Source: Pseudomonadota bacterium
GTDB lineage: Bacteria > Pseudomonadota > Gammaproteobacteria > Burkholderiales > Sulfuricellaceae
Assembly (NCBI GenBank): GCA_021801705.1
Contig: JAJYXP010000066.1
Span: 1-33,310, forward strand
Reading direction: 5' to 3'
DNA: 33,310 bases
In this document: positions 15,676-17,941 of the stretch, piece by piece
Layout of the letters: every line of letters starts with the position of its first letter
Numbering within the stretch: the first letter of the stretch is position 1
Notes under the pieces: model-generated
The model's input: only the letters and a program-made list of their open reading frames with translations
Database searches by the model: none
Told to the model about the DNA's origin: nothing
Program-made: the position numbers and the translations under genes

Positions 15676-16791
15676 ATGACAAAATACATCGGCATCCTCA
15701 CCGCCGGCGGCGACAGTCCCGGCCTCAACGCAGCGATACGCGGGGTCGGCAAGTCCGCTCTGAATAATTACGGCATGCAGATCATCGGCTTCCGCGACGG
15801 CTTCCGCGGGCTGATGGAAAACCGGACGATACGGCTGGACGGCGGGGAGCTGTCCGACATTCTTACCCGCGGCGGCACCATCCTCGGCACCAGCCGCGAC
15901 AAACCGCACCGCATGCCGGTGGGCGGCAAGCTGCTCGACATGACCGACGTCATCGTCGGCAATTACCAGGACAACCATCTTGACGCACTGGTTTGCCTGG
16001 GTGGCGGCGGCACGCAAAAAAATGCCCTGCGCCTCAAGGAAAAAGGCCTCAACATCATCACCCTGCCGAAAACCATCGACAATGATGTCGCCATGACCGA
16101 CGCCACTTTCGGCTTCGACACCGCGCTCGGTATCGCGACCGATGCAATCGACCGGCTGCACAGCACGGCGCACAGCCACCACCGCATCATCGTGGTGGAG
16201 ATCATGGGCCACAGGGCCGGCTGGCTGGCTCTGGGCGCGGGCATCGCGGGCGGCGCCGACGTCATCCTCATCCCCGAAATCCCGTACTCGGTGGAAAGCG
16301 CGGCGGAAGCGATCCGCGAGCGCAGCCGGCGCGGGAAGCCGTTCAGCATCGTTGCCGTGGCCGAAGGGGCAATCTCCAAACAGGAACACGATGCCCTGCT
16401 TGAGGCCAAGAAACAGAAACCCTCTTCCAGGCAAAAAGAGAGCAAGAAGGCCGAGCCTGAAGATATACCGGAAACCCAGTATGCCGAGCGCACGCTGCGC
16501 CTCGCCAAGCAGCTCGAAAAGCTGACCGGCCTGGAATCCCGCGTCACCATCCTGGGACATCTGCAGCGCGGCGGCATCCCCTCCGCGGCCGACCGCCTGC
16601 TTGCCACCCGCCTGGGGACGGCCTGCACCGACCTGATTCATCAGGGCCACTATGGCGTCATGGTTGCCGCCAAGGGGGAAATCACCAAACCGGTGAAACT
16701 GGAGGATGTCGCCGGGCAAGTCAAAACCGTTCCCCCCGACCACCCCTGGGTAGTGAGTGCACGGCGCGTCGGCACCAACATGGGAGATTGA
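15676..16791 (+). CDS. pfkA: 6-phosphofructokinase with atypical donor-site motif
   Basis: The enzyme phosphorylates fructose 6-phosphate, committing sugar to glycolysis. The protein has 371 residues. Conserved features are the N-terminal [18 protein letters not shown] loop, PKTIDND (131-137, catalytic Asp135) and the sugar-binding GHLQRGG near the C-terminus. The phosphate-donor signature reads GGGGT (109-113) where ATP enzymes have GGDGS/T and pyrophosphate enzymes GGDDT. So the usual Mg-binding Asp (E. coli 103) is Gly111. Lys132 (E. coli Gly124) is the pyrophosphate-type residue while Gly112 (E. coli 104) is ATP-type. MGHRAGW has Arg and His swapped relative to the common MGRHAGW. A lysine-rich insert spans about 236-268. 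Family membership is sure; the donor (ATP or PPi) is not. Confidence 0.88.
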
Positions 16792-17156
16792 GACCGCTTG
16801 TTAACGTGAACGTCGCGAAGCGACACCTCATCACTCCCCCTCTGGGCTAATCTATGCACACAAGTCCCCTCTCCCGTCTCGCCGGATTGAGCAGCTTGCT
16901 GCCAATCCCGGCGGGGACACTCCTTGCGGGTGCGAGGGAGAGAGCTAGGGAGAGGGAATTGGTTGATTAACATGCCCTTTTTCCCTCTCCCCCAACCCCT
17001 CCCCCGCAAGCGGGGGAGGGGAGTAAAATCAACAGCTTGCAAAGATGTGTGCATAGATTAGCCCCTCTGGGGGAGAGGTAGGAGAGAGGGAACGGACATG
17101 GCGGCCGCGCCAACCCGAATGATGAACGTCGCGGCCGCCATGACCGTTAGGCAAAA
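16792..17156. other. Gene-free, repeat-filled stretch between pfkA and the GntR gene
   Basis: No open frame here looks like a gene. From left to right it holds a small GTCGC-GAA-GCGAC hairpin (16812-16824), a CTCCCC-type palindrome interrupted by the MITE-like element at 16847-17061, and a 13-bp inverted repeat (CATGGCGGCCGCG 17097-17109, reverse complement 17130-17142). The last lies just 3' of the GntR gene but lacks a T-run. Confidence 0.8.
16847..17061. mobile_element. MITE-like element with 16-bp terminal inverted repeats and 10-bp target duplication
   Basis: CTAATCTATGCACACA (16847-16862) and its exact reverse complement (17046-17061) bound a 215-base element without a gene. The 10-mer CCCCTCTGGG is present directly outside both ends (16837-16846 and 17062-17071). 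Removing the element plus one 10-mer restores an uninterrupted palindrome, CTCCCC-CTCT-GGGGAG. The inside carries two hairpins: CCCTCTCCC (16867-16875) with GGGAGAGGG (16948-16956), and a perfect 12-bp stem at 16996-17007/17010-17021. A non-autonomous element moved by a transposase elsewhere is the simplest reading. Confidence 0.7.
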
Positions 17157-17864
17157 TCAGTCCTGCGATACCGGCTTGGCCTGGCCACGGCCCAAGTCTC
17201 CAAGCATGGGCAGGGAGGCCACCAGATCCGCGAAACGCTGCCCCTGCACCACAACGTGAGCGCGCAACCGCTCGGCGGCAAGCTCTCTATCTCCGGCGGT
17301 AATCGCCTCGACTATGCCGGCATGTTCCGCGAAAGACGTGCTCATCCGGTCCCGAACGCGAAGCTGGAGGCGCCGGTACGGCCTCAATCTCCGGTGCAAG
17401 GCGGCGGCCTGCTCCTCCAGAAACCCGTTATGACTTGCCGCATAGATCAAATGATGGAAGCGCTCGTTTAGCCGATAGTAGGCATCCGGGTCGGCCGCAT
17501 CCCGCGCATCTTCGCAAGCCTGATGCGCCGCCGCGAGAGCAAGTTGTTCGGGTTCCGTAATGCGGCGTGCCGCCAGCCGCCCGCACATGGCTTCGAGTTC
17601 GGCCATCACCTCGAACATCTCGCACAGCCGATGCGGCCCGATTTCCGCGACGATCGCTCCCCGTCGGGGCCGTATCTCGACCAGTCCGGCCGAGGACAAC
17701 TGGATCAAGGCTTCACGAATCGGCGTGCGCGACACGCCGAAACTGCTCGCCAATTCAGTCTCGTCAAGACGCATTCCCGGCGCATAGACCCCCGTGACGA
17801 TGCGCTCCTCGATCAGATAGCCCATCTGCTCCGAGCGCCGCGACGTGCGCTGCTTGCTTTCCAT
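17157..17864 (-). CDS. GntR-family (FadR subfamily) transcriptional regulator
   Basis: This 235-residue regulator has an N-terminal winged helix-turn-helix (about residues 13-75, with LASSFGVSRTPIREAL as the recognition region) and a C-terminal FCD ligand-binding domain (about 85-210). The ATG at 17864 is preceded by GGGAG with five-base spacing; an ATG eight codons further up is less well placed. It is divergent from the TRAP-malonate genes. Two inverted repeats of the TGTATACA kind lie in the gap, and one overlaps the likely transporter promoter. That fits a repressor relieved by malonate or malonyl-CoA, which is inference. GntR-type regulators are known for malonate operons in rhizobia. 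A TATAAT (17900-17905, minus strand) may be its own -10. Confidence 0.9.
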   Translation of the reverse strand: MESKQRTSRRSEQMGYLIEERIVTGVYAPGMRLDETELASSFGVSRTPIREALIQLSSAGLVEIRPRRGAIVAEIGPHRLCEMFEVMAELEAMCGRLAARRITEPEQLALAAAHQACEDARDAADPDAYYRLNERFHHLIYAASHNGFLEEQAAALHRRLRPYRRLQLRVRDRMSTSFAEHAGIVEAITAGDRELAAERLRAHVVVQGQRFADLVASLPMLGDLGRGQAKPVSQD

Positions 17865-17941
17865 AACACTCCCGCATTGCTGTGCCAAATATGGCGGCGA
17901 TTATATAACGATATTGACAACGGATACGCGGGCAGTCAATA

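Follow-up and report, generated by a model that had tools for sequence, protein, structure and literature searches.

The window analysed here, a stretch of 33,310 nucleotides from a member of the Sulfuricellaceae, carries at positions 16847-17061 a 215-bp element with perfect inverted ends, which is seated at the tip of a REP-like palindrome. Comparison of its sequence with other copies and with insertion sequences indicates, with a probability of about 0.9, that this block is a MITE in which two IS4-family, Tn5-like (IS50-type) ends surround REP-like palindromes and which has been moved in trans. In the proposed mechanism, a Tn5-like transposase supplied in trans would bind the ends, and the element would be cut out and then inserted with staggered cuts approximately 9 bp apart. 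These cuts would straddle the symmetry axis of a REP palindrome rich in C and G, as a rule CCC-NNN-GGG, and the symmetric stagger would lead to duplication of the palindrome tip. It is a transposase of this kind that would have moved the copies described below, and by analogy with Tn5 it would have done so by cut-and-paste. A MITE-like insertion into a palindromic repeat had been proposed in an earlier sequence-only reading of this DNA, and the proposal is supported by recurring ends, by an insertion sequence that shares these ends and by sites that lack the element.

The element lies between two convergent genes, a phosphofructokinase gene on the forward strand (15676-16791; Pfam PF00365, 329.9 bits) and a gene for a GntR/FCD-type regulator on the reverse strand (17157-17888; Pfam PF00392 and PF07729). 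A repeat finder returned inverted arms of 19 nt at 16844-16862 and 17046-17064 that are 100% complementary, and this complementarity extends beyond the 16-bp ends because the flanking GGG/CCC of the target is complementary too. The element's own ends are 16847-16862 and 17046-17061, and the outer 3 nt of the arms belong to the palindromic target. The left terminal inverted repeat reads CTAATCTATGCACACA on the forward strand and was delimited by the repeat finder, the end search and a comparison with Tn5 ends, while the right one reads CTAATCTATGCACACATCTT inward on the reverse strand and was delimited by the repeat finder and a comparison with an element from Propionivibrio. The sequence CCCCTCTGGG is present at both 16837-16846 and 17062-17071 as a 10-bp direct duplication, and the earlier reading had both the coordinates and the letters of the inverted 16-bp ends and the flanking 10-mer right. 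Removal of the element and one 10-mer leaves CTCCCCCTCTGGGGGAG, the clean palindrome which that reading had derived, and the same genome has this sequence, without interruption, in four further host-repeat copies (L217, L218, L219 and L221).

When folded as single-stranded DNA, the 235-nt block gives a z of -8.7. Two internal hairpins had been described, and both are found. The first (interior palindrome 1, 16866-16956) is REP-like and reads CCCTCTCCCGCTTGCGGGAGAGGG in the short copies, and in long copies such as the one in the window it is broken by a nested repeat, a REP-like hairpin of about 54 bp (16880-16933) with ambiguous boundaries that was recognised from the alignment and from similar dispersed repeats. 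The description of two hairpins has to be amended accordingly, as the first holds a separate repeat that is present in 6 of 14 copies and missing from the eight short ones. Interior palindrome 2 (16983-17021, repeat finder) is also REP-like and is inverted relative to palindrome 1, and sequence similar to it (query positions 143-188) is present outside the element in the same genome. An Rfam search gave 29 matches up to an E value of 1, all below their gathering scores and 27 of them to microRNA families, which were read as chance matches of a G/C-rich hairpin.

In a search of the window's own assembly (a draft of 2.84 Mb in 79 contigs, 98.75% complete), the block or portions of it were found at 66 places. 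The end pattern CTAATCTRTGCACACA, with at most 2 mismatches, has 31 sites in this genome compared with 0 for the reversed control, and recurrence of the end is far beyond chance. These sites are made up of the 28 ends of 14 complete elements, two solo right ends (on C32 and C56) that were left out of the counts as incomplete, and one unpaired site at C3:15974, which has 2 mismatches and no partner and was treated as chance and dropped from the counts. The search for further copies that the earlier reading had suggested has thus yielded 14 complete elements, and the ends are not confined to this locus; such confinement is what it had regarded as refuting its proposal. The solo right halves at C32:5724 (L024) and C56:15047 (L023) are joined to REP sequence and may be recombination products or a precursor form.

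The complete copies fall into six long ones (214-215 bp) and eight short ones (159-162 bp), and in the alignment the two forms differ at few positions outside the insert of approximately 54 bp, which splits interior palindrome 1 and is similar to a repeat that recurs in the genome and in relatives of the family. Since the long and short forms are both multicopy, both have probably moved. Repeats like the 54-bp hairpin were also seen to sit within palindromic repeats elsewhere in the genome (L025-L028), with matches in relatives. Several properties by which MITEs are recognised are present: the elements are 159-215 bp long, have 16-bp terminal inverted repeats and no transposase gene, occur in multiple dispersed copies with target duplications (14 complete, 11 of them with exact duplications), and share their ends with a transposase-coding element, namely the 1465-bp Propionivibrio element described below and the transposase C-termini that lie at such ends in G360 and G065.

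In this genome, 11 of the 14 copies are flanked by direct duplications that are exact, eight being 9 bp, two 10 bp and one 11 bp in length. The 10-bp duplication described earlier therefore holds for the window copy, and the usual length elsewhere in the genome is 9 bp (8 of 11 exact cases). Among the other three copies, the flanks of the C24 copy are exactly inverted and those on C14 and C6 are imperfect. Every exact duplication spans the tip of a palindrome, mostly CTCCC-NNN-GGGAG, and the loops vary by copy (TCT, GCA, GGA, GCG, TTTT and TTGC, on either strand), with the same loop on both sides in all 11 copies with exact duplications. In 14 of 14 targets, a minimum of 6 out of 7 stem positions around the centre of the duplication are paired, a level reached at 1.1% of positions elsewhere in the window, a background that is mostly coding, so that the contrast with intergenic DNA is overstated, palindromes being commoner between genes. 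The 14 targets are also not fully independent, because several copies share a host-repeat type. In this score the centre was free to shift by one base, the background was scored identically, and a 9-bp duplication was assumed for the three copies that have no exact direct duplication. With a fixed centre, the window copy scores 4/7 and the C64 copy 5/7, as compared with 7/7 for both when the centre is free, and the low fixed-centre values are due to duplication lengths of 10 and 11 bp, respectively.

Another 15 complete short elements with similar ends have been found in other genomes, where eight have exact direct duplications, two have inverted flanks and five have neither; only 4 of these 15 targets reach 6/7 paired stem positions. 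For all 29 complete short copies in this and other genomes, the flanks are direct in 19, exactly inverted in three and otherwise imperfect in seven, a count that excludes a 1489-bp element (L125), the Propionivibrio element, which lies at a contig edge, and single-ended matches in other genomes. Exact inverted-repeat flanks in place of direct duplications were observed at L018 (C24:13446-13606), L098 and L162, and these could represent near-palindromes that were corrected to perfect ones after insertion.

The palindromic target described in the sequence-only reading is present, and it lies itself inside a larger dispersed host repeat of about 135 bp, the left part of which (16801-16846, forward strand) carries the target palindrome and the right part of which (17062-17149, forward strand) resumes beyond the element; both parts were recognised from element-free copies and from the locus of a sister species, which lacks them. 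When the two flanks of the window element were joined and used as a query against the same genome, near-full copies of this outer repeat without the element were found on C9, C19, C63 (two copies), C55 and C3, and four of these six element-free host repeats keep the exact uninterrupted palindrome tip. Compared with the C19 copy, the duplication at the C25 element is exact and 9 bp long, and that at the window element is 10 bp long. In the sister species G009, whose phosphofructokinase is 98% identical to that of the window, neither the outer repeat nor the element is present between the two convergent genes, and the 16-mer was not found at up to 2 mismatches in that genome, which is only 74% complete. 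Empty sites, for which a search had been recommended, are thus available both as paralogous host repeats and as the sister locus. The outer repeat may be a second, separate mobile repeat, because it is missing from the sister locus. By eye, its junctions (16801-17149; L217-L221 and L223) suggest a 3-4 bp TAA/TTAA duplication.

A search for the pattern CTRATCTRTGCRCACA gave matches in 7 of 399 genomes of the order and 0 in the control rows, and the seven are this genome, G004 (same genus), G360, G065, G189, G285 and G186. In other families, G360 has 18 end sites, G065 has 3 and G189 has 2, and the single sites in G285 and G186 look by eye like chance matches in coding DNA. In G065 and G360, the C-terminus of a transposase lies at the ends, and the final codon of the element is its stop codon. 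When named genomes were scanned for a 19-mer of the right end, 49 stretches were returned, from which records of this genome were possibly left out. One of these stretches, L146 from a Propionivibrio MAG, holds a complete 1465-bp element that is bounded on both sides by the 16-bp end in perfect form. An insertion sequence with these ends, for which the earlier reading had proposed a search, is thus present in another genome, and the MITE right end shares its first 20 letters with the right end of this element.

The Propionivibrio transposase matches NCBIfam transpos_IS4_3 with 326.7 bits (cut-off 160) and the Tn5 transposase with an E value of 2.1e-25 and 92.7 bits over 389 residues, a local homology only, and among solved structures Tn5 entries alone matched it at E 0.001. 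The Y(2)R(3)E(6)K motif is found as YRQRWHIEQLFRTLK at residue 292, and the D of IQDTT as well as ADRESD align with the Tn5 sequence. The element begins with CTAATC and so has the 5'-CT end, and its reading frame ends in KDVCID, where the stop codon is formed by the last three bases of the element inside the terminal repeat. As assembled, the N-terminal start of this transposase is in a different frame, so no fully intact autonomous copy has been seen. The contig stretch ends 3 bases past the element, and the duplication lengths of 9-11 bp come from the MITE copies; a 1489-bp copy from Methylococcales has no duplication.

Nine right ends that lie beside recognisable transposase sequence all abut a C/G-rich half-palindrome ending in GGG. 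These comprise five from G360 (four recognised by protein match and the fifth, on C190, solely from similarity at the DNA level), two different flanks from Propionivibrio, where a third record repeats one of the two, one from G065 and one from a Methylococcales MAG. Because these transposase-linked ends abut half-palindromes, the sequences suggest that the preference for palindromes belongs to the transposase and not to the MITE. Other end matches have flanks without such a half-palindrome; four of them belong to a Legionellaceae MAG, and Chryseolinea and a Nitrosomonadales MAG each have one. In the Legionellaceae MAG (L118, L123, L152 and L158), the 19-mer end occurs four times with similar sequence inward of it, no second end and no palindromic flank.

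Among the closest known systems are IS50/Tn5 and IS50-type members of the IS4 family; in IS50/Tn5 the target duplication is 9-10 bp, about one helix turn. The system described here is like them in that the partner transposase is homologous to that of Tn5 and has the YREK motif, in the 5'-CT ends and in the duplication of approximately 9 bp at the MITE copies. The Tn5 outside end is identical to the MITE left end (with the following AGT) at 12 of 19 positions (shuffle p 0.0013) and the Tn5 mosaic end to the MITE right end at 11 of 19, and the ends of both share ACACAAGT and ACACATCT; the Tn5 letters were taken from oligonucleotides given in PMC3347997. It differs from IS50/Tn5 in that the MITE strongly prefers C/G-rich palindromes in this genome and that the sequence of the partner transposase is divergent. 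The definition of the Y(2)R(3)E(6)K motif comes from "IS4 family goes genomic" (PMC2266710), in the relevant passages of which 5'-CT ends are reported for the subgroups IS10, IS50 and ISPepr1.

Four plasmid-borne relatives of the transposase (42-47% identity), from the best 12 of 607 matching records, are bounded by similarly built ends (CTA...ACACAAGT or ...ACACATCT) and have direct repeats of 10-11 bp. The top plasmid relative among the 12 listed of 607 is ISSysp3 of the Picosynechococcus plasmid pAQ7 (annotated as IS4-like, 47.3% identity), the end of which, CTACTGTGTACACACAAGT, agrees with the MITE left end at 15 of 19 positions and which has a 10-bp direct repeat at that copy. Unlike the MITE, ISSysp3 is a full insertion sequence, and the flank of the single copy examined contains A/T (CCCTCTAAAT) and no REP palindrome. 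The end of the relative on a Nostoc plasmid agrees with the MITE left end at 13 of 19 positions, and the relative on an S. meliloti plasmid lies in CTCCCTTCAGGGGAG. REPs have been described as targets of insertion sequences, including the IS4-family ISRm22 of Sinorhizobium meliloti, all copies of which are reported in REPs at the axis of palindromy (Tobes and Pareja, 2006; PMC1525189). ISRm22 resembles the present case as an IS4-family element at the REP palindromy axis and differs from it in being autonomous, in the 6-bp duplications reported for it and in its assignment to subgroup IS4Sa (PMC2266710). REP-targeting insertion sequences and MITEs derived from insertion sequences are both already known. 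A literature search gave no description of this element, and an exact text search for the 16-mer gave no paper.

Other explanations for the block can be weighed against these data. It is very improbable that a larger REP/BIME mosaic spreads as a whole, with the duplication as a mere feature of its palindrome. A larger repeat is indeed common to several copies (C29, C25 and C64 are of one type and C67, C15 (20148) and C24 of another) and palindromes readily yield repeated flanks, but the same larger repeat is found without the element, the target loops vary between copies while being identical on both sides in the 11 exact cases, and the orientation of the element varies within one host-repeat type (C29 and C25 versus C64). 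The earlier reading had seen a threat to its proposal in relatives carrying the block as part of a larger conserved repeat; such a host repeat exists, and it also exists without the element.

REPINs are miniature mobile DNA built on inverted REPs, and palindrome-associated transposable elements are related to IS200/IS605. The interior of the short copies does hold an inverted pair with 82-83% identity over 40-41 nt, as would suit mobilisation of a REPIN-like repeat by a transposase of the RAYT (REP-associated tyrosine) kind, and yet such an origin is very unlikely, since the ends are common to IS4-family insertion sequences whose coding frame runs into them. Unlike REPINs, the element has IS4-family terminal inverted repeats together with direct target duplications, and REPINs moved by RAYTs are not known to carry long, perfect terminal repeats together with 9-bp duplications. 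Retention of the copies because their hairpins serve the host, for instance as a two-way terminator between convergent genes, is compatible with the MITE reading and would fit both the position of the element between two such genes and its strong folding, but both the element and the outer repeat are missing from this locus in the sister species, and host function is very unlikely to be what keeps the copies.

No match to the Propionivibrio-type transposase was found in this genome, and among 21 other genomes of the family 19 were without a match, with only G004 and G007 matching. G004 has two distant relatives of the transposase (36% and 31%), and G007, of the same genus, has a short insertion sequence relic (L246, G007:C3) in which a stop and a broken transposase start lie beside an end differing at 3 of 16 positions. 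Across the 22 family genomes, PF14706 (the Tn5 N-terminal domain) was found in two long Tn5-like proteins, both in G004, which were rejected as the source of the element in that no matching end was present in the stretches examined. At L080 and L081 of G004, the open frames that encode Tn5-like transposases have 763 and 727 codons, and the protein of L080 is much extended at its N-terminus. Two DDE_Tnp_1 genes, the only ones in the window's own genome, were likewise rejected, being bounded by other inverted repeats. All ends in this genome are at least 1.9 kb from contig ends, and several in G360 are within a few hundred bases of them. The MITE is probably an orphan, the source of which would have been lost, be absent from the assembly, or have come and gone.

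The 28 distinct short elements form nine clusters by interior, one of which has 13 members, all from this genome. An inverted pair inside the element was detected by BLAST in three of the nine clusters (the short copies of this genome, G065 and one MAG titled Bordetella), and similar inverted pairs in other interior clusters were seen by eye only; MAG titles naming Bordetella parapertussis are given as deposited and the label is doubted. The less usual feature of this system is that, from lineage to lineage, unrelated interiors are found between the same ends. The transposon may have taken up host repeats, or the host repeats may be derived from it. A tentative and rather unlikely extension is that one set of Tn5-like ends serves as a general vehicle, by which palindromic repeats of the host would be captured and then inserted anew into the tips of further palindromes, such that REP arrays would enlarge through nesting by means of a DDE transposase and without RAYT.

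These results tie an unnamed MITE to a class of transposase through its ends, the length of its duplication and its target, and they add a Tn5-like case to REP-targeting transposition. The repeat-within-repeat locus can be ordered in time against the sister species. The capture of palindromic cargo, if true, would give REPs a way to spread that does not depend on RAYT enzymes.
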